Of a stretch of DNA of 64,000 bases, positions 19,656-62,962 are shown piece after piece. Position 1 is the stretch's first letter. Each line of letters begins with the position of its first letter. The notes below the pieces were generated by a model, which ran no database searches, was not told the origin of the DNA, and saw nothing but the letters and a program-made list of their open reading frames with translations. Source of the DNA: Levilactobacillus enshiensis (lineage in GTDB: Bacteria; Bacillota; Bacilli; Lactobacillales; Lactobacillaceae). The stretch lies in contig NZ_SULH01000001.1 of NCBI RefSeq assembly GCF_007115095.1, positions 186,001-250,000 of the forward strand, written 5' to 3'. Both the position numbers and the translations under genes were made by a program.

Positions 19656-19829
19656 TCGCCTTACCGGCCGGCAGATATGGGCTGGAACGGTGCGAACGCA
19701 ACTTGAAGCCTCGAAAGAACCGAGTCTACAAGCTTGGTTTTCTACTAAAGCCAGTAAGCAGATCACTTACTGACTAAGTAGAACGACGCGCCTGAGCCCA
19801 TATCTGCCGACCTCTCGGCTTACATTGTG
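19656..19829 (+). repeat. Dispersed structured repeat family A, copy 1
   Basis: A core of about 174 bp shared with 30384-30556 (inverted), 47525-47697, 62790-62962 and the fragment at 37081-37123. The outer arms CGGCAGATATGGGCT and AGCCCATATCTGCCG are fully complementary; an inner imperfect stem pairs TTCTACTA..CCAGTAAG with CTTACTGACTAAGTAGAA, and a small CCTCG..CGAG stem lies between. No open frame. Confidence 0.92.
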
Positions 19830-20051
19830 TTTTCAGACGAAATTGAGATTAACTATAACCGGCGTTATCAATGGCGACCTAAAATATTGGGTAACCGTGT
19901 TTGACAGCCATTTTTATGCTAAAACACAATCCGCGCCGGAGAATGCCAGGGATGGAGCCAGCCGTGAATAGGGATTGTGGGAAAAGTAGGGACGTTTAGC
20001 CAGCATATCTCTAATGCAATGGCTTTCTGCACCATAATTGTTAACTATTCA

Positions 20052-20231
20052 AGTAGCCGGGAGTGAGCCAAATTTGGACTCAGCCGTGGGATTTTTCAAG
20101 TGTATTGCTTGAAAAATGGCGACTTTGAGACGGTGAATTTTCCGGCTCAAAGCGAGGTCAAAGACCGCTCCACAGGCTTTGGCCGTCCTACCCACCGCGT
20201 TCCGGTCCAAATTTGGCGAACGGTAAGGCGG
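20052..20231 (+). repeat. Dispersed structured repeat family B, copy 1
   Basis: About 180 bp, with a second full copy inverted at 44363-44541 and a fragment at 47420-47478. The ends carry the inverted repeat GCCAAATTTGGAC / GTCCAAATTTGGC. Inside are stems ATTTTTCAAG / CTTGAAAAAT, CTTTGAG / CTCAAAG and GGTCAAAGACC. The intergenic stretch 19402-20235 holds only the terminator, repeats A and B, a family C fragment and about 220 bp (19830-20051) with no gene. Confidence 0.9.
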
Positions 20232-20235
20232 CAGG

Positions 20236-21201
20236 CTAATTGAATTGTGCAAGCAAGGCGGACATGAAGGCTTGGGCATCCCCCACGTAGCCGTAATCTG
20301 CGACATCAAAGATGGGGGCCTGCGCATCAGCGTTGACGGCCACGATGGTCTGTGAGTCCTGCATGCCGACTAAGTACTGAACGGCACCGCTGATTCCGAA
20401 GTTTAGGATCAGTTCGGGGTGAATCGTGTTACCACTCTGGCCGATTTGGTCGTCGTGCGTAAAGCGGTCCTGGTCGGTCAGTGGCCGAGAGACCCCGATG
20501 CGTCCACCGAGCTTTTCGGCTAATTTAGTGGCAGTGTCAATCGTAGCTGCACTAGCAGCACCGCGGCCTAGCGCCACTACGCGGTTAGCATCGCCGACCG
20601 TAGTGGCCGTGTTAACGACTGGCCGGGCAGTTGTCAGGTTGAGCCGGTCGACTGGATGGACCGTGACCGTGGCCGTGGTAATCTTGGCATCACCTGGTGC
20701 TGGGGTGGCGACGAAGGTGTTGGGCCGCACGCTTGCCATTTGTGGCCGGTGGTCTGGGCAGATAATCTCACACATGATGTTGTCCCCGTAGGAAGGTTTA
20801 GTGGCGACCAGGGTGTCGTCATCGAAGCGCAGGTCAAGGCAATCAGCAGTCAGACCGGTTTGTAGCTTGGCCTGTAGCCGCGGGGCGATGGAACGGCCAG
20901 TGATGGTCGCCCCAAATAGAATCGAGTTGGGTTGGTAGTCATCGACGAGTTGCTTCAGGGCGTCAGCGTGTTCAGCGTCAGTGGCGGTGGGAAAACGGTC
21001 GTCGCGAACGATTCGAATTTCATCGGGACCGTAAGCTGTGAGTTCATTTTCCAAATGGTCGGCGGTGGCTTCCAACAGGATCGTGATGACTTTGAAATGA
21101 TCGCCGGCTAAATGTTTAGCTTTAGTGATTAATTGTTGGGTCGTGGGTTCGACGTGGTCTAAGCGGCGTTCCGCAATGACCCAAAGTTCTGGTTTTGACA
21201 T
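20236..21201 (-). CDS. etfA: Electron transfer flavoprotein, alpha subunit
   Basis: A 321-residue subunit that binds FAD and passes electrons from acyl-CoA dehydrogenases. N-terminal domain ELWVIAERRLDHVEPTTQQL; the C-terminal FAD domain has VALGRGAASAATIDTATKLA, GGRIGVSRPLTDQDRF, IGQSGNTIHPELILNFGISG then AVQYLVGMQ and IVAVNADAQAPIFDVADYG, which closely follow the EtfA consensus. It ends the leftward acd-etfB-etfA operon, 13 bases after etfB. Repeat family B abuts its stop. Confidence 0.93.
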   Translation of the reverse strand: MSKPELWVIAERRLDHVEPTTQQLITKAKHLAGDHFKVITILLEATADHLENELTAYGPDEIRIVRDDRFPTATDAEHADALKQLVDDYQPNSILFGATITGRSIAPRLQAKLQTGLTADCLDLRFDDDTLVATKPSYGDNIMCEIICPDHRPQMASVRPNTFVATPAPGDAKITTATVTVHPVDRLNLTTARPVVNTATTVGDANRVVALGRGAASAATIDTATKLAEKLGGRIGVSRPLTDQDRFTHDDQIGQSGNTIHPELILNFGISGAVQYLVGMQDSQTIVAVNADAQAPIFDVADYGYVGDAQAFMSALLAQFN

Positions 21202-21214
21202 GGCAGATTCCTCC

Positions 21215-22006
21215 TTAGATGAGTTGACGGTTCTTAAGGGCCGTAATGAGTTGGTTGGCAGCTTCCGTTGGCGTCCCGGTCAGCGGCGTCAGTTCCCGTT
21301 TTACGGGTTCTGGTGCGTAGACCTTGGTCACGATGGTTGGCGAGCCGGCCTGACCTAAACGCGAATCGTCTAAGTCGAGGTCGTCGTGGTGCCAAACGGT
21401 CAATGGTTTTGCGAAACTCAATTGAATATTGCGTGGCGTTGGGTAACGTGGCGTGTTTAATTCACTCCGGACGCTGACCACGGCGGGGAGGGTGGCAACC
21501 AGTGTTTGCTTGGTATCCTCTAAGAGCCGTTCAGCTGTGACCTCGTTGGTGCCGCTTAACCGTAAGCTGGCGGCGTAGGTGATCTGTGGTTGGTGTAAGA
21601 ATTCAGCAACGATGGGGCCGACCTGGCCCGTATCGGCGTCGACGGCTTGCCGGCCAAATAAGACGAGGTCGACGTTGCCAATTTGCTTGATGGCTTGTGC
21701 AATCACGTAGCCAGTCGCTAAGGTGTCGGCACCAGCAAAGGCGCGGTCAGATAGGAGCACGCCAGCATCGGCACCCATGGCCATGCCTTCACGCAAGGAT
21801 TCGGCGTAGTCGTCGGGGCCCATACTGAGGAGCACGACTTCGGCATCCTTGTCGGCGTCCTTCAGTTGGAGTGCCTGCTCAACGGCATTCTTATCAAAGG
21901 GATTCATGACGCCAGCTAACCCGCGTCGGTCCAAGTTATGGGTGACCGGGTCAATGGTGACGTCGTTGGTTTCGGGAACTTGTTTGATACAAACCACAAT
22001 TTTCAT
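21215..22006 (-). CDS. etfB: Electron transfer flavoprotein, beta subunit
   Basis: A 263-residue partner of EtfA: MKIVVCIKQVPETNDVTIDP, MNPFDKNAVEQALQLKD, VVLLSMGPDDYAESLREGMA, LADRAFAG-like SDRAFAGADTLATGYV, and VDLVLFGRQAVDADTGQVGP, the AMP/FAD-site signature of EtfB. ATG 22006 has AGGAGG 6 bases upstream. It lies 10 bases after the acyl-CoA dehydrogenase and 13 before etfA, so the three are one transcript. Confidence 0.94.
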   Translation of the reverse strand: MKIVVCIKQVPETNDVTIDPVTHNLDRRGLAGVMNPFDKNAVEQALQLKDADKDAEVVLLSMGPDDYAESLREGMAMGADAGVLLSDRAFAGADTLATGYVIAQAIKQIGNVDLVLFGRQAVDADTGQVGPIVAEFLHQPQITYAASLRLSGTNEVTAERLLEDTKQTLVATLPAVVSVRSELNTPRYPTPRNIQLSFAKPLTVWHHDDLDLDDSRLGQAGSPTIVTKVYAPEPVKRELTPLTGTPTEAANQLITALKNRQLI

Positions 22007-22016
22007 GGGGAACCTC

Positions 22017-23138
22017 CTATTTATTGAATTCGGCATTAGCAATGGCGGACCGCATTTTTTCGACGGTCCCTTCAGCGATTTCCATGGCGCGTGCGTCGCG
22101 AATCAAGTGTTCAACGGGATACTCACGGCTGTAACCGTAGCCGGCTAAGATTTGTAAGGTGTCATCGCCGGCACTTACAGCAGCGCGTGAACCGTGGGCC
22201 TTGGCCATAGCAGCTTCCTCGCTATAAGGACGACCGGCAGCCTTGAGCTGGGCGGCTCGTTGGTACAAGAGCTTAGTCGTTTCTTTGCGCATGGCAATAT
22301 CAGCGACTTTGCGGTGAGTGACTTGCAGCTTAGTCAGGGGTTTGTCACCGGCTTTGCGCTCTTTGGCGTAATCCGTGGCAATCTTCAATTCATGTTCCAT
22401 GATGCCAGTTAGCACAGCGCCCATTAGGATGCGGGCGTCGTCGTGAGCACTGTCACCGATCATTCCGCCATCGCCGAGTTTTCCCAGTAAGTGGTCATCG
22501 TCAACGATAATGTGATCCATAACGATTTCACCAACGGGGGTGCCGCGTAGACCGATGAAGTCTTCACGCTTGCCAAATGAAAAGCCGGGCATGTCCTGGT
22601 CCACAACGAAGACGGAGAGCTCTTGCGGCGCAGTCTTGACTAGCACACAGTAGACTTGTGCGAGGCCACCGTTCGTAATCATGATCTTATCGCCGGTGAT
22701 GACCCAGTGATCACCCTCGCGTGTCGCGGTCGAGCTGATGCCCATGGGGTTCGACCCACCGCTGGCTTCGGTCATGGAAAAGGCGAAGATCCGGTCGTTA
22801 GCGGATGGCAATAATTGTTGCTGAAGGGCGGGGGTCCCGAATTTTAAAATTTGATCGATGGTCTTGAAATGGCCTTCAAGGGTGACGGCCGTGCTGGCGT
22901 TCCCCCGAGCGATGTGATTCAAGGCCGTGGCCGTGACTTCGGGACCGAAGCCGGCACCGCCGAATTCTTGGGGTAACATGAGGCCTAAGAAGCCAGTCGT
23001 GGTCAACTGTTGCACAAAACCGGCGGGAAAGTCCCCGGCGGCGTCCATTGGCATGTCCTGAGGGGCAATCTCCCGGGCAGTATAATCATCAACCATTTGT
23101 AACAAAAGCTTCTCTGCGGCAGCTGTTGTGGATGGCAT
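22017..23138 (-). CDS. Acyl-CoA dehydrogenase-family flavoprotein
   Basis: A 373-residue protein with the ACAD fold: GFLGLMLPQEFGGAGFGPEV, FSMTEASGGSNPMGISSTAT, WVITGDKIMITNGGLAQVYC, and the C-terminal ILAGYGYSREYPVEHLIRDA then RAMEIAEGTVEKMRSAIA with the expected catalytic-region Glu. It would oxidise an acyl-CoA or run as an enoyl-CoA reductase, exchanging electrons with EtfAB. ATG 23138 has AAGGAGG 8 bases upstream. No thiolase, acyl-CoA ligase or ETF:quinone oxidoreductase is in the window, so substrate and electron sink are open. Confidence 0.9.
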   Translation of the reverse strand: MPSTTAAAEKLLLQMVDDYTAREIAPQDMPMDAAGDFPAGFVQQLTTTGFLGLMLPQEFGGAGFGPEVTATALNHIARGNASTAVTLEGHFKTIDQILKFGTPALQQQLLPSANDRIFAFSMTEASGGSNPMGISSTATREGDHWVITGDKIMITNGGLAQVYCVLVKTAPQELSVFVVDQDMPGFSFGKREDFIGLRGTPVGEIVMDHIIVDDDHLLGKLGDGGMIGDSAHDDARILMGAVLTGIMEHELKIATDYAKERKAGDKPLTKLQVTHRKVADIAMRKETTKLLYQRAAQLKAAGRPYSEEAAMAKAHGSRAAVSAGDDTLQILAGYGYSREYPVEHLIRDARAMEIAEGTVEKMRSAIANAEFNK

Positions 23139-23727
23139 AGTGAAGTTCCTCCTTATCAAGTCTAAGATTGTGAGTAGCCGCTTAGCGCTGGTAGACACTT
23201 TACTTGGTGCTTACTAAAGCGGTAGAGCAGCAACGGATTTTGTTATCATGTTTGAGTGCCAGTCTTTACCTTAAGGTGACAAGCTGACCCTCATTTCATT
23301 GTTCATAACTGAACGATGTGGCGTAAGTATAGCTAATAATCGCTTGATAAGTCCAGAGATTATGCGTCTTTTTAGAATATTCGTTATTCCTAATAAGAAT
23401 AAACATGATTCCAAATGTATGTAGCAGTCGTTTTTTTTGAAGGAATCAAAATTAATGACTTCAGGGCTTTTCATGTTGATATAACAGGGATTTCAGGCGA
23501 TGGCCAGCGATAGCTATGTGTCGTTAAAATTAGCGTTAATGGTCAGTCAAATTTACGGATGAATAACGGGCAACTTATTCGCGATTTTTGACTGTCACCG
23601 GTGACTTAACCCAGAATAGTTTGTGCAGCGTTAGGTAATTGTGGACGCGACTTACTGGATTCGACACTGGTGTGGGGGGCTACAGAGACGGGGACGTCCG
23701 GTTAAATTTGGACAATCAGGAAAATTT
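23139..23727. other. Gene-free region between the acd operon and galM
   Basis: About 590 bp with no convincing coding frame, repeat copy or strong terminator. A 67-codon frame on the minus strand (23271-23474) lacks a ribosome binding site and protein-like composition. It presumably contains the leftward acd promoter. Confidence 0.5.
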
Positions 23728-23767
23728 TAGTAAAAAATTGGTACTTACCAGCGGAGTATTATACAAT
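23728..23767 (+). promoter_or_regulatory. Candidate galM promoter with partial GalR-type operator
   Basis: TTGGTA (23738-23743), 18-base spacer and TACAAT (23762-23767). TAGTAAAAAATTGGTA at 23728-23743 matches one half of the galK operator perfectly and overlaps the -35. Confidence 0.5.
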
Positions 23768-23803
23768 GAAACCGGATTCTTTTAATTGGAGGTGCTATTT
23801 TTT

Positions 23804-24826
23804 ATGGAAATTACCACAAGTGCTGCTGGCATGTTGCACCAGCAAGAAGTTACCAAGTACTTATTGACCAACCGACAGGGAACGCGGGTCGCAATTCTGA
23901 CCTGGGGGGCAACGCTACAAGAATTTAGCGTTGATGAAGATGGTCAACGTCACCAACTGATTGTGAACTTACCCAATTTAGCTGACTATGACCACAACCC
24001 TTATTACTTATGCCAAACGTTAGGTCGGGTCGCTGGCCGAATTGCCGGCGCCCAATTTGACCTCGATGGCCAGACGATTCACTTGGACGCCAACGAGAAA
24101 CCCAACGCCAGCCACGGTGGCCCCCACGGCTTTACCTTCGTTAACTGGGACGCGACGACGACACAAACTGCGGATACCGCTAGTGTTGTGCTGACCCATA
24201 CGGCCACCCCCGCTGACGACAAGTATCCGGGCAACCTCAAGACGACGGTCACCTATACACTGACTGAGGAGAATCGTTTGGACATTACGTTTGATGCCCA
24301 AAGTGATGCTGCTACGTTGTTTAACCCGACGGTCCACACCTACTTCAACGTCACTGATGACCAGCACAGTCTGAATGAGCAATGGTTGAAGTTGAGCGGT
24401 ACCAAGCGGCTCGTCTTAGACCAGGCGAAGATTCCAACTGGCGAGATGGCCACGACTGCCAATACTGGTTACGACTTCAGTCAACCGCGGACCATCAAAG
24501 ACGGCTTAGACCAATTACATCAAACAGGTCAGGTCGAATATGACGATGCTTTTGTTGTGGAACCGAGCAAGGACACACCAATCGCCACGGTGGGGGACAC
24601 CACGGGTCACCGGGAGGTCCAAGTGTACTCTGATCGTAATGGACTGGTCGTCTTCACGGCTAATCCAACGGACGAGAAACGTGCCGATCAACGCGATTAC
24701 AATGCATTAGCCATGGAAGCCCAAACCTTACCGGACGCGATTCATCACGCGGACTTTGGCGACGTGATCTTACCGGCGAACCAGCCCGTTACCCATTTAA
24801 TTAGTTATCAATACATCAGAAAGTAA
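23804..24826 (+). CDS. galM: Aldose 1-epimerase (galactose mutarotase)
   Basis: A 340-residue enzyme that interconverts alpha and beta galactose, feeding galactokinase. Catalytic His regions are NASHGGPHGFTF near residue 100 and FNPTVHTYFNVTD near residue 175; the general-base Glu is expected in LAMEAQTLPDAIHH near the C-terminus. ATG 23804 has GGAGG upstream with 10-base spacing. pgm starts 14 bases after its stop, so the two are co-transcribed at the left end of the galactose locus. Confidence 0.93.
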   Translation: MEITTSAAGMLHQQEVTKYLLTNRQGTRVAILTWGATLQEFSVDEDGQRHQLIVNLPNLADYDHNPYYLCQTLGRVAGRIAGAQFDLDGQTIHLDANEKPNASHGGPHGFTFVNWDATTTQTADTASVVLTHTATPADDKYPGNLKTTVTYTLTEENRLDITFDAQSDAATLFNPTVHTYFNVTDDQHSLNEQWLKLSGTKRLVLDQAKIPTGEMATTANTGYDFSQPRTIKDGLDQLHQTGQVEYDDAFVVEPSKDTPIATVGDTTGHREVQVYSDRNGLVVFTANPTDEKRADQRDYNALAMEAQTLPDAIHHADFGDVILPANQPVTHLISYQYIRK

Positions 24827-24840
24827 GAGGAGAGATTACA

Positions 24841-26574: not shown

Positions 26575-26649
26575 AAATGAAGGTTTAACTGACAAGCAGT
26601 AGGGATGCGTTGTCGTTCCTAAGCACAGCCAGTTAGCGAATATATGCGT

Positions 26650-26699
26650 GGAGACACTAAAGGAGCTATGACAATTGTCATAGCTCCTTTAGTGTCTCC
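26650..26699. repeat. Perfect 50-bp palindrome downstream of pgm
   Basis: Each 25-base half is the exact reverse complement of the other, beginning GGAGACACTAAAGGAGC and meeting at ACAATTGT, with no spacer. As RNA it gives a hairpin of up to about 23 bp. No T-tract follows on either side, so it is not a standard intrinsic terminator. Confidence 0.95.
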
Positions 26700-26845
26700 G
26701 GGCTTAACTAGCAATCACCGTCTGAGGAGTTGAACAACACCATCTTAAACGATAAATCATTCAGACCAGAAATAGATTTAGTAAATTTTTAGTCAATTAA
26801 ATACAACCGGTTGCAATATTATTAAATCAGCTTACCGTGCAATAG

Positions 26846-26861
26846 TTAGTAAATCATTACA
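26846..26861. promoter_or_regulatory. Candidate GalR-type operator ahead of the permease operon
   Basis: TAGTAAATCATTACAC matches the galK-site pattern TAGTAAA-N2-TTTACTA in the left half fully and in most of the right half. A related TTTAGTAAATTTTTAGT lies about 70 bases upstream. Confidence 0.5.
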
Positions 26862-26909
26862 CAATGAAAAAGGTTGCATAATCTGCATGAGACTCTTATG
26901 ATAGCAACT

Positions 26910-26923
26910 GTGAAGCGCTTACA
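26910..26923. promoter_or_regulatory. cre-like site ahead of the galactose permease operon
   Basis: GTGAAGCGCTTACA has the AAGCGCTT core and a perfect right half of the CcpA consensus; the left end deviates. Located 135 bases before the first gene. Confidence 0.5.
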
Positions 26924-30383: not shown

Positions 30384-30556
30384 CACAATGTAAGCCGTGA
30401 GGTCGGCAGATATGGGCTCAGGCGCGTCGTTCTACTTAGTCAGTAAGCGAACTTCTTACTGGCTTAGTAGAAAACCAAGCTTGTAGACTCGGTTCTTTCG
30501 AGGCTTCAAGTTGTGTTCGCACCGATCCAGCCCATATCTGCCGACCGGTAAGGCGA
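30384..30556 (-). repeat. Dispersed structured repeat family A, copy 2 (inverted)
   Basis: The reverse complement of the family A core, with outer arms of the GGGCT/AGCCC type as in copy 1. With the family C copy it fills most of the 512-bp galK-galE spacer. Confidence 0.92.
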
Positions 30557-37080: not shown

Positions 37081-37123
37081 TCGCCTTACCGGCCGGCAGA
37101 TATGGGCAGGATCGGTGCGAATG
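37081..37123 (+). repeat. Truncated copy of dispersed repeat family A
   Basis: The first 43 bases match the left end of family A (TCGCCTTACCGGCCGGCAGA onward), then similarity stops. The complementary right arm is missing. Confidence 0.8.
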
Positions 37124-44362: not shown

Positions 44363-44541
44363 GCCGCCTTACCGTTCGCCAAATTTGGACCGGAGCGCGG
44401 TGGGGAGGACGGCCAAAGCCTGAGAAGCGGTCTTTGGCCTCGCTTTGAGCCAGAAGATCACTGTCTCAAAGTCGCCATTTTTCAAGCAGAACACTTGAAA
44501 AATCCCACGGCTGGGTCCAAATTTGGCGCACTCACGGCTAC
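44363..44541 (-). repeat. Dispersed structured repeat family B, copy 2 (inverted)
   Basis: The reverse complement of the 20052-20231 element, with the same CAAATTTGG-containing terminal inverted repeats and the same three inner stems. Confidence 0.9.
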
Positions 44542-44720
44542 TGAGCGTATTCACAAGTAGGTTGGAGCGCAATGCTTTGACGACTGCATTATTGTTAAGG
44601 ATGAACGTCATTTGAGGCGGCTGGTGACGATTGTATTCGAATCAGCTTGGACTATATTTAGTGGGGGGCTAACACCGGCTTGGCAGAGTCGGTAGACGTG
44701 TTCAGCTCAAAATAAGCATA

Positions 44721-47408: not shown

Positions 47409-47419
47409 ATTGGCTCAAC

Positions 47420-47478
47420 TGCCGCCTTACAGTTCGCCAAATTTGGACCGGAACGCGGTGGGGAGGACGGCCAAAGTG
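47420..47478 (-). repeat. Truncated copy of dispersed repeat family B
   Basis: Matches about 58 bases of one end of family B (GCCGCCTTAC, TTCGCCAAATTTGGACCGGA, GGGGAGGACGGCCAAAG), then similarity ends shortly before the family A copy at 47525. Confidence 0.8.
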
Positions 47479-47524
47479 CCGGCTATGCCTGTTGTAGCAA
47501 CAATTAGGCAACATAGTAGTTGCG

Positions 47525-47697
47525 TCGCCTTACCGGCCGGCAGATATGAGCTGGAACGGTGCGAACACAACTTGAAGCCTCGAAAGAGCCGAGTCTACAA
47601 GCTTGGTTTTCTACTAAGCCAGCAAGCAGTTCACTTACTGACTAAGTAGAACGACGCGCCTGAGCTCATATCTGCCGGCCTCTCGGCTTACATTGTG
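47525..47697 (+). repeat. Dispersed structured repeat family A, copy 3
   Basis: Full core copy. The outer arms are CGGCAGATATGAGCT and AGCTCATATCTGCCG: relative to copies 1 and 2 the G-C pair is replaced by A-T on both arms. Confidence 0.92.
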
Positions 47698-50029: not shown

Positions 50030-50087
50030 GGATAAGTGCTAACGGTTAGTGCCTGTGAAACGCATGTTACTAACTACGAGGTTGCAA

Positions 50088-50205
50088 GATGAAATTCAGG
50101 TTTCATCTCAGTATGGGTCGGTCAACAGTCATCACACCGTCAAATTAGGCTAACTTGTGTGTACTCCGGCTGCCAGGGATTCCGCCTGATGTGGGGACGC
50201 TGTCG
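50088..50205 (-). repeat. Dispersed repeat family C, copy 2
   Basis: Shares GATGAAATTCAGG, CATCTCAGTATGG, CTCCGGCTGCCAGGGATTCC and GTGGGGACGCT with the copies at 63215-63320 (inverted) and 30193-30290. Confidence 0.8.
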
Positions 50206-54145: not shown

Positions 54146-54153
54146 GATGTTAT

Positions 54154-54193: not shown

Positions 54194-54307
54194 TTACAGA
54201 GTAATTGAGTCCCGAACCTTTACAATCGGTTAGATCAGATGGCGGTTATGTGGCCGAAAAATATCCTTTTGACTAAACTGAGGCTAATTAAGGGAGAGGG
54301 ATGTGTG

Positions 54308-55213
54308 ATGAAAAATGTTGTTAAAGGCATTGTTGCTATGGGAGTGGGTGTGAGCCTCTTAGGCGGTACACTAACGGCATCAGCTAGCTCACAATACTCC
54401 GCTAGTCGGTCCAACTCAGTTAGGTTAGTCTGGCGGGCAAGTATGGGGAGACATGCACTGGTAGCGAGTCAAGGCGCACGCTACTCGGAACACTTAGGCA
54501 TTCGCTATGACTACAACAGTGACACACCAGATATGGTTTGGTATACAAATGCCCATGAAGAGCTGTATGACGTGGACTCTGGCAACTATTTAATTTACTA
54601 TCACGTGAATAGTGCGGATGGCCAGCACGGTGGCTGGATTTGGCGGGGGTACTTGAAGGATGCTAGTTCCGTTAAAAAGACTAAGACGAGTGCACCAGCC
54701 ACAACGCCATCGACGAGCACGGATGGGAATGGTTCGACGGATTCGAATACGTCAACGGATAGTACTACACCGGCTACAACGTCGACGATGGATTGGACAC
54801 CGTATATTCAAGTGGATGCTCTTGAGCCAGCAGATATTAACTTGATGAAACAATTTCCAAATTCGTTTTATAGTGAACAGGCCGCTGGAGCTGCAAATGA
54901 CTTTCTAGAAACTGGAACTGGTAGAGATATTTTAGATCAAGGTAGGACAACTGAACTTCTGCATCAAGAGTATAGTGATTTCTTGGCTGGATGGGGATTA
55001 AAAACAAATAGTTTCCAAGTGATTTTGTTTAATGTGAGTGATCCTAATAGTAGTAGTGAAGTGGCTCAGGCATTGACCGATGCAGGATATGATACTGGTG
55101 TCAGGGATAATCAATATAAAGGTTGGTATGTTGGTGGTCAGATTGAGCCAGCAGATGCAGAAAGTGAGACGACTCCGGCCGGAGAAGGTATACTTTTCCT
55201 AGTAAAAGAGTAG
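54308..55213 (+). CDS. Secreted protein, tandem paralogue 1
   Basis: A 301-residue exported protein. Signal peptide MKNVVKGIVAMGVGVSLLGG ending TLTASASS. A conserved domain to residue 115 (SRSNSVRLVWRASMGRHALV; HVNSADGQHGGWIWRGYLK) resembles surface-layer/GW-like wall domains. A Ser/Thr/Pro linker of about 45 residues (STSTDGNGSTDSNTSTDSTT) follows, then a C-terminal domain of about 130 residues (ALEPADINLMKQFPNSFYSE). ATG 54308 follows GGGAGAGGGATG. The 3' half is notably more AT-rich than the 5' half and than the paralogue. No LPxTG motif. Confidence 0.8.
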   Translation: MKNVVKGIVAMGVGVSLLGGTLTASASSQYSASRSNSVRLVWRASMGRHALVASQGARYSEHLGIRYDYNSDTPDMVWYTNAHEELYDVDSGNYLIYYHVNSADGQHGGWIWRGYLKDASSVKKTKTSAPATTPSTSTDGNGSTDSNTSTDSTTPATTSTMDWTPYIQVDALEPADINLMKQFPNSFYSEQAAGAANDFLETGTGRDILDQGRTTELLHQEYSDFLAGWGLKTNSFQVILFNVSDPNSSSEVAQALTDAGYDTGVRDNQYKGWYVGGQIEPADAESETTPAGEGILFLVKE

Positions 55214-55503: not shown

Positions 55504-56316
55504 ATGAAACAAGTTGTTAAGGGAATTATTGCGTTGGGTGTTGGTGTCAGTTTACTAGGCAGTTTGGGAACGACAGCGTCAGCGAACTCGCAGTACTCGG
55601 CTAGTCGGTCCAATTCGGTTCGGTTAGTTTGGCGGGCTAAGATGGGCCGGCACGCCATGACCGCGGTTAAGGGGAGTCGTTACTCGAAACACTTGGGTAC
55701 CTGGTATGGCTATAATAGTAGCCTGTCAGACGTGACGTGGTATACCAATGCGCATGAAAAATTGTATGATGTGGCGACGGGCAAATACTTAATTTATTAC
55801 CATGTGAACAGCGCTGACGGTCAGCATGGGGGTTGGATCTGGCGCGGTTACTTAAAGTCGGCGGCTACGACTCCCGCCACGCCAACCACGTCAAGCATGA
55901 ACTGGACGGCGGCAACGCAGGCAGAGCAGTTACGACCCGCAGATATCAAACTGATGCAGTTGTTCCCCCATGCCGCGTACGACGGTGCGTTGATGGCAGT
56001 GGTCAATCAAGTCTTTGCGTCGCCCACCAATCAACCGATTTTAACGGAGGAAGATAGCGGGGCTAACAATGACTTTGACCAGTTATTAACGAAAAATAAC
56101 GCGTTATACAGTGCCTTCTACCTGGTCCGGTTTAAAGTTGACGACCCGAATAGCTTAGCGGAAGTAAAACAGGCTGTGAATGACAAACTCACTGCGGGTC
56201 AACGAGCTGACCTTCAACGGTGGCGGATTGCGGGTAAAATAGCGCCTAGTGATTCGTCCAACCAGTCGCCCTATTTGAAGAGTGGCATGGGACTCTTGGT
56301 TTTTGCGGCTAAATAA
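55504..56316 (+). CDS. Secreted protein, tandem paralogue 2
   Basis: A 270-residue exported paralogue of 54308. Signal peptide MKQVVKGIIALGVGVSLLGS ending TTASANS; the N-terminal domain is nearly the same (QYSASRSNSVRLVWRAKMGR; HVNSADGQHGGWIWRGYLK). The linker is shortened to about 15 residues (TTPATPTTSS), and the C-terminal domain is recognisably homologous but diverged (EQLRPADIKLMQLFPHAAYD). GGGGAGG precedes the ATG. It has its own leader and terminator, so the two are separately transcribed duplicates. Function unknown. Confidence 0.8.
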   Translation: MKQVVKGIIALGVGVSLLGSLGTTASANSQYSASRSNSVRLVWRAKMGRHAMTAVKGSRYSKHLGTWYGYNSSLSDVTWYTNAHEKLYDVATGKYLIYYHVNSADGQHGGWIWRGYLKSAATTPATPTTSSMNWTAATQAEQLRPADIKLMQLFPHAAYDGALMAVVNQVFASPTNQPILTEEDSGANNDFDQLLTKNNALYSAFYLVRFKVDDPNSLAEVKQAVNDKLTAGQRADLQRWRIAGKIAPSDSSNQSPYLKSGMGLLVFAAK

Positions 56317-56318
56317 CT

Positions 56319-56369
56319 AAAAACACATTTCTGGACCGAATGACTCGGCACACAGAAATGTGTTTTTTT
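56319..56369. terminator. Terminator after secreted paralogue 2
   Basis: A perfect 15-bp stem AAAAACACATTTCTG / CAGAAATGTGTTTTT with additional T. Convergent with the GNAT gene. Confidence 0.8.
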
Positions 56370-56383
56370 ACGATCTAAAGTGG

Positions 56384-56833
56384 TTAATGCCGCAGCGTCC
56401 AACGCCACTGGTCATCAGTTTTTATAAAGCCCGCCGCAGTTAGGACGGCATCGTCCAGCAGGGTGGTATCTGGTAAGGTCAGTTTGGTCAATTGAAGTTC
56501 CTCACGGCCGAAACTAACTAAGCGGTCGACGATTTCTTGCTGTTCGGCGACGGGGAGGCGTTTGCCGGTTAGGCAAGCCTGGCCCTTGTGCGCGCTGAGG
56601 TCTAAGTTGGTGAAGCCCCCCCAGCCAATTAACTTGTGCGTCTGCCGCCGTTCAATTCCCCAAGTCAGTGCGGTACGGGCCATGGTGTTGCGCATGGTGC
56701 CGTTGACCCAGTCAGCCGTTTCGCCGAGGTCTTGATTAGTCAGGTCGGCAACGTTCTTTAATTTAAAGCGGGTGAGCCAATCGAAACGAAAAGTAGGGGT
56801 TAATAGGGGATGATACCCTTCGAAGCTAGACAT
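56384..56833 (-). CDS. GNAT-family N-acetyltransferase-like protein
   Basis: A 149-residue protein similar to RimJ/RimL-type GNATs: HPLLTPTFRFDWLTRFKLKN, ARTALTWGIERRQTHKLIGW then GGFTNLDLSAHKGQACLTGK (beta-4 region), and LQLTKLTLPDTTLLDDAVLT then AAGFIKTDDQWRWTL near the C-terminus. The acetyl-CoA loop is not typical (LTGKRLPVAEQQEIVDRL), so activity is uncertain. ATG 56833 gives MSSFEGYH with AAGGA upstream. Confidence 0.65.
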   Translation of the reverse strand: MSSFEGYHPLLTPTFRFDWLTRFKLKNVADLTNQDLGETADWVNGTMRNTMARTALTWGIERRQTHKLIGWGGFTNLDLSAHKGQACLTGKRLPVAEQQEIVDRLVSFGREELQLTKLTLPDTTLLDDAVLTAAGFIKTDDQWRWTLRH

Positions 56834-56972
56834 GTGCGGTGATTCCTTTCTGAATCCGTTTAGCCCCATTGTACCGGTAAATGCAACTGAACGCTAGTGA
56901 CTTCCTCGGTGTTAATCGTTCAGCTGTGCTATACTTGAAAGTGATATTGGCAAGTTGAAAGGGGTAGCACAC

Positions 56973-58013
56973 ATGACGGAAGATTTTTATATTGGAACTT
57001 ACACCAAGCGGATTAGTCGCGGCATCTACCGGGTCAGCGTGGACACCAAGGCACCGAAGTTAACGGATTGTGAATGGTTAGCATCAGCTGGGAGCCCAAC
57101 CTACATTGCAAAGGCCAAGGCTAAGCGGCTGTACGTCATCAACAAGAAGGAAACTGATGGTGAAACGCATGGTGGATTGATCATCTACGATATGAGCGAA
57201 GACAAGCCACGGGCCATTCAACAGGTCTTGGCAACGGGTTCTTCACCAGCATATGTCGCAGTTGACGAAGCGCGTCAGCTGGTCTACACGGCGAACTACC
57301 ATACCGCTGCGGTTCAGGTCTACGCCATCGCTGCTGACGGAACGTTGACGGAAACGGACAAAGTGATCGACCAAGATCCAGTTGGTCCAGCACCCGAACA
57401 AGCCGACGGTCCCCACCCCCATTTTGCTGACTTGACCCCAGATAACCGGTTAGTCGTTTGTGACTTGGGTTCAGATAAAGTTTATCTGTACGACGTGTCC
57501 GACGCCGGCAAATTGACCCCCGTTAGCCACGTGGACTTACCCGCTGGCTACGGGCCACGGCACATCGTCTTTGACGCCAAAAAGGGTGTTGCGTACTTAG
57601 TTGGTGAATTAAGCAGTAACGTGGCCACTTTGGCTTACGATGCGGCTGCCGGCAAGTTCACGGTAAAGTCGATTATCTCGACGATTCCGGACGACTGGAC
57701 GGCGCACAACGGTTCCGCTGCGATTCGGTTGAGTAGTGATGGTCGGTTCGTTTACGTGTCCAACCGGGGCAACAACTCGATTACGGTCTTCGCGACCGCA
57801 GAAGACGGCACGTTGACGACGGTGCAACGCATCTCCACGGAAGGTGACTTCCCACGGGACTTCAACTGGACTGCTGATCAAAGCCTAGTCTTAGTGGTCA
57901 ACCAGAACTCCGACAATGCTAGTCTGTATCAACGCGATGCGCAGAGCGGTAAGCTGACCTTGGTTCAAAAAGACTTCATGGTACCGGAAGGCGTTAGCGT
58001 TTTACCGGCTTAA
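56973..58013 (+). CDS. Lactonase family protein (6-phosphogluconolactonase-like beta-propeller)
   Basis: A 346-residue seven-bladed propeller of the YbhE/Pgl type: DFYIGTYTKRISRGIYRVSV, SPTYIAKAKAKRLYVINK, GPHPHFADLTPDNRLVVCDL, AGYGPRHIVFDAKKGVAYLV, NGSAAIRLSSDGRFVYVSNR then GNNSI, and FPRDFNWTADQSLVLVVNQN. It would hydrolyse 6-phosphogluconolactone in the heterofermentative/pentose phosphate route, though family members differ in substrate. GAAAGGGG precedes ATG 56973; an in-frame start at 56955 overlaps that site. Confidence 0.88.
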   Translation: MTEDFYIGTYTKRISRGIYRVSVDTKAPKLTDCEWLASAGSPTYIAKAKAKRLYVINKKETDGETHGGLIIYDMSEDKPRAIQQVLATGSSPAYVAVDEARQLVYTANYHTAAVQVYAIAADGTLTETDKVIDQDPVGPAPEQADGPHPHFADLTPDNRLVVCDLGSDKVYLYDVSDAGKLTPVSHVDLPAGYGPRHIVFDAKKGVAYLVGELSSNVATLAYDAAAGKFTVKSIISTIPDDWTAHNGSAAIRLSSDGRFVYVSNRGNNSITVFATAEDGTLTTVQRISTEGDFPRDFNWTADQSLVLVVNQNSDNASLYQRDAQSGKLTLVQKDFMVPEGVSVLPA

Positions 58014-58154
58014 AGAAGAGCGTGAGGCTAAAGGTGATTAGCTGATGCGCATTAAAGCGGATGGTTCAATAATCCTGGGCTTGGATTGTTGGGCTATTAG
58101 GTTTAAACGGAGCCGGCTGCCTTTTGGCACACATTTTAGCAAGATAAAATAAAG

Positions 58155-58204
58155 AATAGCGTTTGGAAGGCTGTCAATTCAGCCATTCCAAACGCTATTT
58201 TAGT
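58155..58204 (+). terminator. Terminator after the lactonase gene
   Basis: AATAGCGTTTGGAA pairs with TTCCAAACGCTATT around an inner GGCTG / CAGCC hairpin, with T following. Confidence 0.85.
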
Positions 58205-58208
58205 CTCT

Positions 58209-58262
58209 AATTGAAAGCTGAAAGCCACGCCTCAGCCTAGTATTGGCAAGCGTCTAGACTGT
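58209..58262 (-). repeat. Degenerate fragment of dispersed repeat family C
   Basis: CTGAAAGC..AGTATTGGCAAGC parallels the left part of the copy at 30193-30290. Diverged. Confidence 0.4.
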
Positions 58263-58271
58263 CATTAGACC

Positions 58272-59189
58272 TTAATCAGGATAATGGGTCTTAAAATACG
58301 CTGCCATGGTCTGCAAATGGTGTTCCAGACTGAGCCGCTTGACGACGCCTAGGCCGGGAAAATGCTGCGTCACGTGATAATCGGCGAGTGCTAGGGCGGC
58401 CGGTGTCTGGACTGCCGCCGATTGCTCCGGCAACCAAGCCGCTAGTTTGGCGACCGCTTGAAAGAACTTTTCCTTCGGGTGGCGGTAGTCGTCACGGTCA
58501 TCGGATACGAAGCGGTGAATCCGTAACTGGTCGCCAGCGAAGTAGGTCAGATGGAGGGTGACGGCCCGTGACGGATAACCATGCTCGCTGTAGTGAGCGC
58601 CGCCAATCGTGTAGTCGCTGACGCTAGTATAACCGTCTAGGGGAGCCGTTTGCCAGTCCTCACTGAAGAAACCGTCCTCGATGTCGGCGTAGCTCCGATC
58701 GTGTTCGGGAATCCAGGCATGGTCGTACAGACTACCGGTTGAGCGGCTGAGCAACTGGCGAATTCGCGCTTCCGGCGGGACCAAGAGGTAGGTTGGTGCC
58801 GTTAACCACCCGGCGTGTTGGGCAGCGACTAACTCGTCGTATTGCCGCGCGACCAACAGCGTTTGTTGGGTTGCTGAGGGCTGGAGGTCACGTGGAATAG
58901 TGGTGGGGGTCAAGATGTGACCGATGATAAGATTGGAATTTTCAGCGTAGGGGCGCCAATCGTAGAGCTTCTGCTGGGTCAAGGCGTAATCACTGACGGT
59001 GGGGTTGGCGATGACCACAAGGGGTTGGTCGTGTTCCACGAAGGCGGCCACGGTCTGTGGCAACGCGCGAATATCGCGAACCGGTTCAATAATTGGAATA
59101 ATGTTTCGCGGCAAAACGTGTTGTTGGGCAATGTTTTTCAGCGCCAGCAGGTCGTATTGGCGACCCCGAAAGTAAGGAAAGTAGATCAT
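58272..59189 (-). CDS. sce7725-like / beta-protein family protein
   Basis: A 305-residue protein starting MIYFPYFRGRQYDLLALKNI, with IIPIIEPVRDIRALPQTVAA and VVIANPTVSDY, the beginning typical of the sce7725/beta-protein families. These families are uncharacterised and known from defence-like or phage-like gene pairs. The C-terminal region (HPKEKFFQAVAKLAAWLPEQ; LGVVKRLSLEHHLQTMAAYF) is helical. Its ATG overlaps the stop of the upstream nuclease gene by 4 bp, so it is the third gene of a coupled helicase-nuclease operon. Function unknown. Confidence 0.72.
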   Translation of the reverse strand: MIYFPYFRGRQYDLLALKNIAQQHVLPRNIIPIIEPVRDIRALPQTVAAFVEHDQPLVVIANPTVSDYALTQQKLYDWRPYAENSNLIIGHILTPTTIPRDLQPSATQQTLLVARQYDELVAAQHAGWLTAPTYLLVPPEARIRQLLSRSTGSLYDHAWIPEHDRSYADIEDGFFSEDWQTAPLDGYTSVSDYTIGGAHYSEHGYPSRAVTLHLTYFAGDQLRIHRFVSDDRDDYRHPKEKFFQAVAKLAAWLPEQSAAVQTPAALALADYHVTQHFPGLGVVKRLSLEHHLQTMAAYFKTHYPD

Positions 59190-59878
59190 GGGCGTTGCTC
59201 CCTGAGCTTCTCTTGTAGCTCGTGGCGTTCCAAGTTGAGAGCGTCAATCTCACTTTGAAGGGCCGTGACCGCGGCAGATTGGGTGTCATCGATGAATTGG
59301 TCATAAAAATTGGCCGCGGGATCGTAAATGTCATAGTGTTGATGGCGCTTTTTCAGCTCCTGATAGAGACGCTCGGTGCTGTATTGTTTGAGGCCGGTGG
59401 CCATCTGTTTGGCCTTACCGACCTCGCGCGCCTGCGAGGCGATGAAGCGGGTGGTCAGTTCCGATGCGGGAACCTGCAACTCCTGGTGGCGTGGGGGCCG
59501 GGTAATGGTCAAATAGCCCGGTGTGGTGGGCGCCTCGGTCGCTGTGGCCAACATTTCTGGGTCGAATGGCCGGTAGATCAACACCCCAATGTGCGCGGGA
59601 ATCTCGTCGGCGACCGCTTGGTACAGCTTTAATGGCAGAACGAAGTAATTGTAATGGCCAACGAAGGAGAGCTTGGCCTTGGAGTGAAAGTCGCTCTTGG
59701 TGACCTTCAGCTCGTAGCAGCGCCACTCGATGGACTTGTCCGCTAATTCCTGATAGCTGAGCGTGTCGACGATGCCGGCGTCGGCGGGCATCGTGACCTC
59801 TTCCACGGCAAAGGCCCCGGCTTCTCTGCAGTAGGCATAAAGGGTGGCTTCCATGGCTAACGTTAATTTGGTTTTCAT
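59186..59878 (-). CDS. PD-(D/E)XK nuclease-fold protein (MmcB-like)
   Basis: A 230-residue protein. The nuclease core is visible: Asp in MPADAGIVDTLSY and E-x-K in RCYELKVTKSDFHSKAKLSF, then VGHYNYFVLPLKLY, as in MmcB-related and sce7726-like restriction-fold proteins. A C-terminal coiled coil follows (QSEIDALNLERHELQEKLRE). ATG 59878 overlaps the helicase TGA (ATGA), has AGGAGG 9 bases upstream, and its own stop overlaps the next ATG, so all three genes are translationally coupled. A DNA repair or defence nuclease is likely; the partner proteins are inferred from gene order. Confidence 0.78.
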   Translation of the reverse strand: MKTKLTLAMEATLYAYCREAGAFAVEEVTMPADAGIVDTLSYQELADKSIEWRCYELKVTKSDFHSKAKLSFVGHYNYFVLPLKLYQAVADEIPAHIGVLIYRPFDPEMLATATEAPTTPGYLTITRPPRHQELQVPASELTTRFIASQAREVGKAKQMATGLKQYSTERLYQELKKRHQHYDIYDPAANFYDQFIDDTQSAAVTALQSEIDALNLERHELQEKLREQRP

Positions 59879-62238
59879 TGTGAGACCTCCTGGTGCCAAA
59901 AGTTCTGAACGGCGGTCGGCAATTGTTCCGGACGGTAGAGACGACGGAAATGTTGCCAGTGACGAGGATAGAGTTGCGTGTAGCGGGGACTGGCGAAGCG
60001 TTGGTCCATCAATAAAATAATGCCAACGTCATGGGATCCGCGAATCAACCGGCCCGCTGCCTGAAAGACGTTATTCAAGCCGGGCAGCTGATAAGCGTAC
60101 GCGAAACCGTTATGCGAGTCTTGATCAAAGTAGTCGCGAATCAGGTCGGTCTCGGGATTGATTCCCGGCAGGCCAACGCTGACAATCCCGACACCGATCA
60201 AGCGGTCAGCTTTTAAGTCGATTCCTTCAGCGAAGATGCCGCCCAGGAGAGCGAAGCCGACCAGCGTTGTAGTGGGATTGGCCTTGAAATTAGCGAGAAA
60301 TGCCGTCCGGTCCGCTTCGGCCATTTGGGCTTGTTGACTGACGGTGTGAATGTGGGGATAGGCCATGGCGAAGGCTTGACTGACATCGAGGAGGTAGTGA
60401 TAGGACGGCAGAAAAATCAGGTAGTTCCCGGTCTTGCCGTCGACCAGCGTTTTAATGGCCAGCAGGATGTTTGCAAGATTGGCGTCACGCTGTTTGTAAG
60501 TAGTTTGGATGTAGGTCGTGACCAGGATTTCTTGGTGCTGCGGCTCAAATGGCGAGTCGAGACGGTAGGCCAGACTGTCCTGATCACCCCCCAGCACCGT
60601 TTGGTAGTAGTCCATGGGAGACAGGGTCGCGGAGAACAGGACGGCGCCGTGGCCGAGGGCGAGACTGTTGGCGAGAAAGGCGCTGGGATCCAAACAGAGT
60701 TCCTTCAAGGTGATGTTGCCATCGGCGATTTCTAAGCGCATGCGGTAGGTGTCATCGTAGTAGTCACCGATGCGCTGATAGCTGATGGCGGCAAAGTAGT
60801 AGTCAAGGATGGCCTGGGTGAAGGGCGTCTGTGGTTGATCGACCAACCAGTCGTGAATGGCTTCGACCAGGCGGCCAAGATCGTGTTCAAAGTTTTCCGG
60901 CGGCGTCAGAAAGGTGCTATCGGTGCGACCATCCGCGAGCAGTGGCGCACAAATGTCGTCAAAGGTCGCCCGTAGATCAGCCAATCGGCGGTGCAATTTC
61001 TTGCTGGCTTGGGGCAGGTCGCGGCTCATCTCAACCAGGTGGTCGAGGGGCTGACTGCTGATTGCTGCGGAGTACATGTCCCGCGAACGGCTGACCAGGT
61101 TGTGAGCCTCGTCAATCAGGAAAAAGTTGTCGGGATCCTCGGTCGCAAAGAAACGCTGCAGGTGAACTTGCGGGTCGAACAGGTAGTTGTAGTCACCGAT
61201 GATGACATCACAAAAGAGACTGGCGTCGAGTTGAAATTCAAACGGGTCCAGCGTGTGTTTGCGCGCATATTCTTCGATGACCGGGCGGGTAAGCTGGTCG
61301 TTATTTTCAAGCAGATCTAGCAGTGCCGGTTTGAGACGGTCGTAATAGCCCAGCATGTAGGGATTCTCCTCGGGCAACAGATCGGCCTCTTCAGGAAAGG
61401 CAATTTTGGCCTTGGCGGTGAGCGTGATGCTCTTCAACTTGAGCCCCTGACTGGCCATGAGGGTGATGGCTTCTTCGGCGACACGGCGGGTGCTTTGCTT
61501 GGCGGTGAGGTAAAAAATTCGTTGAATGACACCTTCACCGACAGCTTTAATGGTAGGAAAGAGGGTGGAGATCGTCTTCCCCGTTCCGGTTGGTGCCTCG
61601 GCAAAGAGTCGTTTGCTGGTGAGGATAGTCTTGTAAACGGCTACTGCCAGTTCACGTTGACCGGGCCGGTAGTGGTCGAAGGGAAAGGTCAGCTGTTTAA
61701 TAGTTGGGTCGCGCCGGTCACGCAGGTCAGAACGAAATTTGAGCCAAGTGACGTATTCGGTGATGACAGTATCGAAGAAGTCTTGCGCTTCAGCCCGGGT
61801 GATGGTTTGGTCGGTTTGCGTGGTGGTCTCGGTGTTGGTCTGAAAATAGGTCAGGGTGAGGGTCACGGCATCGAGATCCGTTTCCTTTGCCATCAAAAGG
61901 TAGGCGTAGATCTTGACCTGTGCCCAGTAGAGGGTCAGGGTGTTATCGCTGAGCTGGTCGAAAACGGTCTCTGAGGTCTTGATTTCCTCGATGGTGGCGC
62001 CGTCTTTGGTCAGGGTGACGCCATCGGCTCGACCGTGGAGCAGGTAGTCGTTTCCATTTAGCGTTAAGTTTTTATCGAGATAATATTCCTTTTGGTAGTC
62101 GGCTCCCCGCTGCTTTTGTAAGCGTCGGTGAATCTGAGCACCAAGTAGGGCCGTGTTCTGACTCCCAGAAGTGCTGCTGAGGTCACCAGTTCGTAAGGTG
62201 AACTCCACCAACTCACGCACGCCTAATTTAATGGTCAT
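59875..62238 (-). CDS. XPD/DinG-family DNA helicase with N-terminal Cas4-like nuclease-fold domain
   Basis: A 787-residue SF2 helicase. Residues 1-190 resemble a RecB/Cas4 PD-(D/E)XK domain (LLHGRADGV, then IEEIKTSE). The helicase part has Walker A EAPTGTGKT, DEAH box FLIDEAHNLVSRSRD, motif III VLFSATLSP and motif VI NVFQAAGRLIRGSHD. Between Walker A and DEAH, where XPD-type enzymes carry four Fe-S cysteines, the sequence reads KAKIAFPEEADLLPEENPYM with no cysteine, so the cluster appears lost. First gene of a three-gene coupled operon. Probable 5'-3' helicase in repair or defence. Confidence 0.9.
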   Translation of the reverse strand: MTIKLGVRELVEFTLRTGDLSSTSGSQNTALLGAQIHRRLQKQRGADYQKEYYLDKNLTLNGNDYLLHGRADGVTLTKDGATIEEIKTSETVFDQLSDNTLTLYWAQVKIYAYLLMAKETDLDAVTLTLTYFQTNTETTTQTDQTITRAEAQDFFDTVITEYVTWLKFRSDLRDRRDPTIKQLTFPFDHYRPGQRELAVAVYKTILTSKRLFAEAPTGTGKTISTLFPTIKAVGEGVIQRIFYLTAKQSTRRVAEEAITLMASQGLKLKSITLTAKAKIAFPEEADLLPEENPYMLGYYDRLKPALLDLLENNDQLTRPVIEEYARKHTLDPFEFQLDASLFCDVIIGDYNYLFDPQVHLQRFFATEDPDNFFLIDEAHNLVSRSRDMYSAAISSQPLDHLVEMSRDLPQASKKLHRRLADLRATFDDICAPLLADGRTDSTFLTPPENFEHDLGRLVEAIHDWLVDQPQTPFTQAILDYYFAAISYQRIGDYYDDTYRMRLEIADGNITLKELCLDPSAFLANSLALGHGAVLFSATLSPMDYYQTVLGGDQDSLAYRLDSPFEPQHQEILVTTYIQTTYKQRDANLANILLAIKTLVDGKTGNYLIFLPSYHYLLDVSQAFAMAYPHIHTVSQQAQMAEADRTAFLANFKANPTTTLVGFALLGGIFAEGIDLKADRLIGVGIVSVGLPGINPETDLIRDYFDQDSHNGFAYAYQLPGLNNVFQAAGRLIRGSHDVGIILLMDQRFASPRYTQLYPRHWQHFRRLYRPEQLPTAVQNFWHQEVSQ

Positions 62239-62409
62239 GACCCGTCACCTCACTTTCATTACGAAGTTTTAACTTACTGTTGAGGGGAGCAACGCAATCC
62301 GGCGCCTCCCGTCGATGTGATACACACAACCGGTATCATACCATAGATTTCGGTAAGTTTGAACGCGCGTTCGGCTGGAATGACTTATTGTGAATTTTTT
62401 ATAAAAGTA

Positions 62410-62438
62410 TTGGCAACGGTCATGTAATCGCTTACAAT
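62410..62438 (+). promoter_or_regulatory. Promoter of the HPr-like gene
   Basis: TTGGCA (62410-62415), a 17-base spacer and TACAAT (62433-62438), 20 bases before the start codon. Confidence 0.7.
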
Positions 62439-62457
62439 AGAACCAGAGGTGATCACG

Positions 62458-62721
62458 ATGAAAACAATTGGCTTTCCTTTATATGAAGTAACGCCCCCGG
62501 TCGACGAAGCAGCCGCGCTGCAGCAAATCTGCTCACGCTACACGGGTACGGCAACGATCAAGGTTCGCGATGTCGAACTGAATCCGCAGCTCCAGCATGA
62601 AGTGGCCCAGTTATCAAAGTACGGTGGTAAGTTCATTCAAGTGGTTGCAGATGGTCCGGACGAAGCCCAGTTAGCGGCAGCAATTCATCAGCAGTTGGCA
62701 AAGGATCAATTCTGTTATTAA
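62458..62721 (+). CDS. HPr-fold protein lacking both phosphorylation sites
   Basis: An 87-residue protein. From residue 24, ICSRYTGTATIKVRDVELNP and FIQVVADGPDEAQLAAAIHQ align well with the PTS phosphocarrier HPr (ASKF..., VTVDGADEAEGMAAI). The active-site segment HARPA is replaced by TPPVDEA and the Ser46 region by NPQLQHEV, so it cannot act as a phosphocarrier. Possibly a regulatory decoy or a Crh-like relic. GAGGTGATC stands 8 bases before ATG 62458; monocistronic. Confidence 0.6.
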   Translation: MKTIGFPLYEVTPPVDEAAALQQICSRYTGTATIKVRDVELNPQLQHEVAQLSKYGGKFIQVVADGPDEAQLAAAIHQQLAKDQFCY

Positions 62722-62789
62722 AGGTTGAAGGATCCAAGCCTGTTTTACCAACAACAATGGTCCTAAAACTAGGCAACTTGGTGGTCTGG

Positions 62790-62962
62790 TCGCCTTACCG
62801 GCCGGCAGATATGAGCTGGAACGGTGCGAACACAACTTGAAGCCTCGTAAATCACGAGTCTACAAGGTTGGTTTTCTACTAAGCCAGTAAGAAAAACACT
62901 TACTGACTAAGTAGAACGACGCGCCTGAGCTCATATCTGCCGACCTCTCGGCTTACATTGTG
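62790..62962 (+). repeat. Dispersed structured repeat family A, copy 4
   Basis: Full core copy with outer arms of the GAGCT/AGCTC type as at 47525. The small inner stem is CCTCGTAAATCACGAGTC, keeping CTCG/CGAG pairing while the loop differs from the other copies. Confidence 0.92.

Follow-up and report, generated by a model that had tools for sequence, protein, structure and literature searches.

A MITE-like element of Levilactobacillus carrying two facing units with a covarying three-way-junction fold

Here, we describe a dispersed intergenic element of about 600 bp in Levilactobacillus enshiensis, the copies of which are non-autonomous, MITE-like transposons with inverted ends and target duplications. 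Each complete element carries two facing units whose fold covaries across genera of the Lactobacillaceae. As the leading, albeit tentative, explanation, we propose that the unit is a selected DNA hairpin, putatively read by a protein, which has spread as a non-autonomous MITE moved in trans. When intergenic sequence covaries, an RNA is commonly regarded as proven; the unit provides a large and replicated example of covariation that is nearly strictly Watson-Crick, strand symmetric, and accompanied by fixed mismatches, as is expected of a selected DNA fold.

The stretch analyzed (the window) comprises 64,000 nucleotides of the L. enshiensis chromosome. A first-pass annotation, made from the letters alone, had reported four near-complete copies of a repeat of about 173 bp and one truncated copy beginning at position 37081. 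All were found where it had placed them, and all five were recovered by a model, R1, built from 34 unit 1 copies of the genus (one of which, L001, is window copy 1), with E < 1e-46 for each of the four near-complete copies. The 173-bp repeat proved, however, to be the left half of the element rather than the whole of it. The features found in the window are as follows.

62718..63334, no strand: full-length element, copy 4 (617 bp), the sole window copy with both ends at ≤3 mismatches
62718..62731, + strand: left terminal inverted repeat of copy 4, TTAAAGGTTGAAGG, 2 mismatches to the 14-mer
63321..63334, - strand: right terminal inverted repeat of copy 4, TTTTCAACCTTTAG, 1 mismatch to the 14-mer
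62790..62961, + strand: unit 1 (core1) of copy 4, R1 196.7 bits
63067..63258, - strand: unit 2 (core2) of copy 4, convergent to unit 1, outer limits placed by eye and folding
19656..19828, + strand: unit 1 of copy 1, R1 192.4 bits
19890..19968, no strand: what remains in copy 1 of the sequence that leads to unit 2, 75% identity to 63022-63100
30385..30556, - strand: unit 1 of copy 2, R1 197.4 bits
30185..30286, - strand: right-end remnant of copy 2, 83% identity to 63235-63336 inverted
47525..47696, + strand: unit 1 of copy 3, R1 195.3 bits
37081..37155, + strand: truncated unit 1 with an internal deletion, R1 14.2 bits, E = 0.041
44364..44547, + strand: family B unit, a diverged class with the same fold, R1 E = 1.4e-14
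20047..20231, - strand: family B unit convergent to copy 1, R1 E = 6e-13
47419..47476, + strand: partial family B unit right before copy 3, 97% identity to 20177-20234 inverted
50079..50201, - strand: isolated right-end fragment, 88-90% identity to 63215-63330 inverted

Family B units are diverged members of the structural class of unit 1, and R1 detects them in full. Unit 2 is detected in part; in copy 4 the match is confined to 63101-63188 (- strand, E = 1.8e-5), and the single-sequence fold of this unit has an extra arm. The flanks of copy 4, TTCTGTTA and TTTTGTTA, are identical at 7 of 8 bases.

Alignment of 16 long copies gave the layout of the element: an inverted end (CTAAAGGTTGAAAG, 14 bp), unit 1 on the + strand, a spacer, unit 2 on the - strand, and the second inverted end, with target duplications of 7 to 8 bp. 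The ORF list holds no ORF of ≥100 amino acids inside copy 4 (62718-63334). Unit 1 is present in no fewer than 54 copies in the genome of L. enshiensis (3.07 Mb); a 31-base core pattern found 54 matches at ≤3 mismatches (0 for the reversed-pattern control), and the 14-mer end found 66 at ≤1 mismatch (reversed control, 3). When we surveyed 100 core copies (54 from this genome and 46 from relatives), both ends were kept at ≤3 mismatches in 18. In 5 of these 18, the flanks agreed at no fewer than 7 of 8 bases, compared with 1 of 306 mismatched combinations; 4 more showed 7/7 identity shifted by one base (the null rate refers to the unshifted class alone), and 9 had no clear target duplication. Mean pairwise identity among the 16 long copies was 94% in core1 and 90% in core2, as against 66% in the left end, 71% in the spacer, and 61% in the right end; selection could account for the higher identity of the cores, as could the presence of several element lineages or conversion.

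The element thus combines the hallmarks of a MITE, namely, inverted repeats, a target duplication, ends common to transposase-bearing elements, and no transposase of its own. The first-pass annotation had called the repeat MITE-like, and this is borne out by the ends and duplications, by insertions specific to a species, and by insertion sequences of the genus that share the ends. In Levilactobacillus fujinensis, the galK-galE gap, which holds copy 2 in the window, is without an R1 match, and the Levilactobacillus koreensis locus carries R1 units (at 2738-2909 and 4518-4687 of that locus) where the window has none. Some gaps keep other remnants of the family and are therefore not pristine empty sites. 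A search for a transposase with the same ends, which the annotation had suggested, was successful in insertion sequences of the genus: in one locus (L262) the ends (1 and 2 mismatches) enclose a transposase gene in two pieces, in a second (L263) both ends have 3 mismatches and the gene for a 484-amino-acid transposase is intact, two more (L261 and L264) have one exact end each at a transposase gene, and a fifth (L265) has one end alone, with 3 mismatches, at such a gene. Pfam assigned DDE_Tnp_1 and DDE_5 to these transposases, which we take to be IS4-type. None was found in the genome of L. enshiensis itself at E ≤ 1e-20. We infer that insertion sequences sharing these ends supply the DDE transposases that move the element in trans. 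By eye, the 14-mer end is not visible in the copies of G164, a complete chromosome from another genus, and other transposases therefore may serve there.

Two other routes of mobilization were considered and set aside. A candidate autonomous pair of units, separated by 5.3 kb in G164, encloses four ORFs and no apparent transposase (the Pfam check in this interval covered the helicase alone). Mobilization by a Y1 transposase, as for REP sequences, is difficult to reconcile with a domain search (which a diverged enzyme could escape) that found Y1_Tnp in 17 of 24 genomes of the genus; the 7 without it include the unit-rich genomes G002, G017, and G023, and this also distinguishes the element from the REP/RAYT system.

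At its base the unit (~170 bp) has a short stem, then a long outer stem whose letters are nearly free, an asymmetric loop in which GGAACG faces GAG, an inner stem, and a junction that bears two hairpin arms. The unpaired letters of the unit are invariant. In R1, a double change that keeps the pair was seen at 32 of 53 pairs. In a wider alignment, A3 (40 units from at least 6 genera, found with R1 and aligned by sequence alone), double changes were seen at 48 of 55 stem pairs, 90.4% of cells pair, and the covariation score was 0.562, compared with 0.167 for shuffled and at most 0.129 for slid alignments. The base stem is weak in the A3 consensus (3 pairs, 73.7% paired). Across helices 3 to 6, both sides had changed in 312 cells (in 10 cases to U.G) and one side in 5. 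Within variable stems, mismatches are conserved: CxT in one arm was found in 40 of 40 A3 units and in 92 among 93 closer copies, and AxA in the other arm in all 39 A3 units with letters at that place and in 87 of 91 closer copies. The first-pass annotation had pointed to a compensatory swap, GGGC/GCCC to GAGC/GCTC, and had stated that a lack of further copies, or loss of pairing among them, would speak against its reading of selection on a folded nucleic acid. Many further copies were found, with pairing retained: in the 47 of 54 own-genome core copies that were usable (7 running into N were dropped), the swapped pair is G-C in 25, A-T in 18, G.T in 3, and A.C in 1, i.e., Watson-Crick in 43. 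With the cross-genus covariation, support for selection on the fold now extends far beyond four copies.

By DNA similarity, the element was found in 21 of 24 Levilactobacillus genomes (that of L. enshiensis included) and in 0 of 16 genomes of other genera. R1 reached farther: of the 151 Lactobacillaceae genomes sampled, 31 had the unit, and 10 of the 40 genera (up to 18 candidates scored per genome). It found none in 249 further genomes sampled from the class (up to 11 candidates scored per genome). An arm pattern, TGAAGCC-N(7-27)-GTCTTCA, had 130 matches in G002 and 0 in the control. R1 also matched 13 of the 80 named loci that surround rtpr, all of them in Levilactobacillus (brevis CD0817, spicheri, mulengensis, and others) or Companilactobacillus (formosensis, mindensis, zhongbaensis, and nantensis). 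The nearest named relatives of the rtpr protein itself are those of L. koreensis (94%) and L. fujinensis (93%). Searches of PLSDB by blastn with core1, core2, and units of the G164 and G023 types, of phages by blastn with core1, and of IMG/VR by exact match to two patterns gave no match; these searches are sequence based and therefore would miss other unit classes. The element explains much intergenic repeat sequence of Levilactobacillus that, in our searches, had no match to described families. The parts of the literature covered, outside subscription papers and preprints, held no description of the element, and it is undescribed within that scope; in the part of PMC2267715 covered, a table row names L. 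johnsonii.

R1 neighbors no more than 600 bp apart were convergent in 30 of 35 pairs, tandem in 5, and divergent in 0 (loci covering the same place were dropped by hand from this count, and one of them took with it a weak tandem neighbor at E = 5.7e-4). On the G164 chromosome, 150 of 336 candidates were scored and 104 were R1 matches, 52 on each strand; all 27 close pairs were convergent, and 50 units were single. The half of this chromosome around position 1 holds 73 of the 104 matches and 55 of 77 merged elements (P = 2e-4, post hoc and in one genome); according to GC skew over 11 stretches, the origin lies near position 1, somewhere from about 2.19 Mb to the end of the 2.44-Mb contig. Gene context in L. 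enshiensis was drawn with a crude ORF picker, which allowed 52 of 54 copies to be placed. None of the 52 lies inside an ORF; 17 are between convergent genes, 9 between divergent genes, and 26 between tandem genes (15 in one orientation and 11 in the other).

Whether the fold is one of RNA or of DNA can be approached by a simple test, the count of G.U against A.C pairs with an RNA of the same family of bacteria as control. RNase P RNA from 30 Lactobacillaceae genomes, counted with the same script, gave G.U:A.C ratios of 441:28 over all pairs and 205:13 over variable pairs. For the unit, variable pairs gave 33:28 in alignment A1 and 35:26 in A2 (54 distinct sequences among the best 60 of 103 rows; A2 is fitted to the model and leans towards R1, whereas A1 and A3 are not model fitted), the latter differing from RNase P at P = 5e-11 (Fisher). 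With fixed columns included, all pairs gave 70:33 (A1) and 87:29 (A2), an excess that arises because one column is nearly fixed as G.U and another is often U.G; in A3, 65 of 96 GU (against 68 AC) fall in three columns. Per-sequence folds contained G.U at 77 of 2300 pairs on the + strand and 95 of 2306 on the - strand. An initial count over 93 copies, without columns in which G.U is commonest, had given 45 GU and 70 AC, divided as 28:22 in own copies and 17:48 in relatives (the latter mostly from one arm). Given that variable pairs show no G.U excess and that the mismatches are nearly invariant, pairing seems to be enforced on DNA or on both strands, and the pair counts are most simply read as a requirement for pairing in both strands or in the DNA itself. 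The covariation pattern fits folded DNA better than an ordinary RNA.

Our tentative reading is that the units act as folded DNA recognized by a protein. In such a scheme, the unit would be selected as a hairpin on an exposed single strand, or as a cruciform, and the fold would be read, for the transposon or for the chromosome, by a protein specific for both structure and sequence; for such reading, the stems would have to be strictly Watson-Crick, and both the unpaired letters and the mismatches fixed. Counting against folded DNA, the G.U excess over all pairs fits an RNA, the A2 alignment made with R1 leans towards the model, and unit 2 of the window matches R1 in part only.

The main live rival, which we consider possible but on the unlikely side, is that the unit works at the RNA level: the element would be read through from either side and would have to fold irrespective of the strand transcribed, serving, for example, as a bidirectional terminator, an insulator, or a protector of mRNA ends. 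Folding from both strands would remove both G.U and A.C, and their equal numbers, the confinement of the placed copies to intergenic sequence (including convergent and divergent gaps), and the facing units, which read alike from either side, all speak for it; however, the unpaired letters and mismatches are fixed on the reading of one strand, and no U-run was seen by eye after the units. An undescribed structured noncoding RNA made from one strand is quite unlikely; the suggestion in the first-pass annotation that the repeat may be an RNA is weakened but not discarded. The strong covariation, the fixed unpaired letters, the nearly fixed G.U column, and the frequent U.G column would suit such a molecule, yet G.U did not exceed A.C at variable pairs as would be expected of it, G.U was similar in the folds of the two strands, the units of G164 are evenly divided between strands, and orientation between tandem genes is nearly even. 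Nor was there an Rfam match: at the gathering score there were 0 hits in the window and, at 10 loci of other genomes, an L10 leader alone, away from the units, while the copy 4 stretch at E values up to 10 gave five microRNA models and Proteo-phage-1, all below gathering. About equally improbable is a mutational by-product, in which fold-back repair of one arm from the other yields double changes in the absence of selection, the units merely being carried along by an ordinary MITE; this would explain why pairs are strictly Watson-Crick and why G.U and A.C are equally common, but it should have repaired the fixed mismatches within variable stems, and it does not account for the invariant unpaired letters or for cores far better kept than the ends and spacer.

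ERIC, Correia, and RUP sequences are bacterial MITEs, i.e., short, noncoding, dispersed, and intergenic, with ends common to insertion sequences. The element resembles these in being short, noncoding, and intergenic, with inverted ends, target duplications, and the ends of insertion sequences; unlike them, it has two facing, cross-genus covarying units that are better kept than its ends. With REP/BIME sequences and their RAYT it shares a chromosomal, intergenic location, high copy number, mismatched hairpins, and paired units, although the unit is ~170 bp with a three-way junction, compared with ~20 to 40 bp for REP. In integron attC sites and the ends of IS200/IS605, too, structure counts over sequence, and mismatched or extrahelical bases are read on folded single-stranded DNA, whereas the element has DDE-type ends with target duplications. 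Parvovirus terminal hairpins (Y- or T-shaped) are likened by shape alone, together with the facing units; for the element, neither a replication gene nor a link to viruses was seen. The likenesses to REP, attC, and parvovirus ends are ones of analogy, not of membership. A 520-nucleotide long noncoding RNA of Lactobacillus salivarius, described in the part of PMC5643018 covered as a highly expressed megaplasmid transcript, is likewise a long structured noncoding sequence in Lactobacillaceae; the comparison is by description only, and the unit differs in consisting of dispersed chromosomal copies without a G.U excess.

A broader possibility, advanced with more reserve than the element-level explanation, is that the unit is a family-wide DNA-shape element of at least 10 Lactobacillaceae genera, arranged in facing pairs and read by a putative structure-specific protein. 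Under this proposal, what is conserved in the three-way-junction hairpin would be its shape and its fixed mismatches, not the sequence of its stems, and the hairpin would number about 100 per chromosome in some species, with a denser distribution on one side of one complete chromosome. Food lactobacilli, with their many natural copies, offer an accessible system in which to find a protein that reads the fold. One candidate partner was an XPD/DinG-like helicase, which is encoded near copy 4 (59875-62238) and has a relative near a G164 unit. It was rejected, as an R1 unit was found at 1 of 4 helicase loci, the G164 locus that had prompted the idea. By eye, and in a post hoc comparison confounded by phylogeny, the helicase occurs in 30 of 31 genomes with units versus 45 of 120 others, and in 10 of 10 genera with units versus 21 of 40 overall.

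The number of units (structured hairpins of about 170 bp) per genome probably exceeds the counts reported here, because additional unit classes, which carry extra arms, were found in other intergenic gaps:

locus L021, 3′ of unit 1: extra-armed unit, intergenic gap
L. koreensis locus L031, 7399-7557: extra-armed unit, intergenic gap
locus L040, 528-719: extra-armed unit, intergenic gap

The complete chromosome of G164, from another Lactobacillaceae genus, holds 104 units (G164:C1; loci L336-L342 and L364-L371). These are sparser in the central part than at 0-0.4 Mb and 1.8-2.4 Mb, a pattern that possibly represents origin-proximal enrichment. In some of its elements (L336, L339, and L369), a separate palindrome, AGCATCTATTCAGATA...TATCTGAATAGATGCT, lies between the units and is followed by a T-run; this arrangement looks like an intrinsic terminator.

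We also found an XPD/DinG-like helicase gene near units:

window 59875-62238 (-): XPD/DinG-like helicase, adjoining copy 4
L356 3233-5605 (-): relative of this helicase, adjoining a G164 unit

Presence of the helicase follows that of the units (30 of 31 unit genomes versus 45 of the 120 others), but it lay beside a unit in only one of four loci tested.

Multiple contigs of G002, a unit-rich Levilactobacillus genome, terminate within the element, ca. 90 to 160 bp from the terminal repeat (L241-L251), as expected if near-identical recent copies had broken the assembly. At the start of its contig 1 (L217), GGCTCTTTGTCAA comes after the terminal repeat. We take this sequence to be an ISL3-type end; possibly, the element itself carries an insertion there.

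Within the window, a partial unit of the diverged family B continues into the left-hand portion of copy 3 close to a CCAAAGTNCCGGC common to both (47419-47540), which suggests recombination between elements. Separately, two adjacent ORFs (54239-55213 and 55504-56316) contain a 285-bp direct repeat of 72% identity (54374-54658 and 55573-55857), perhaps reflecting gene duplication.
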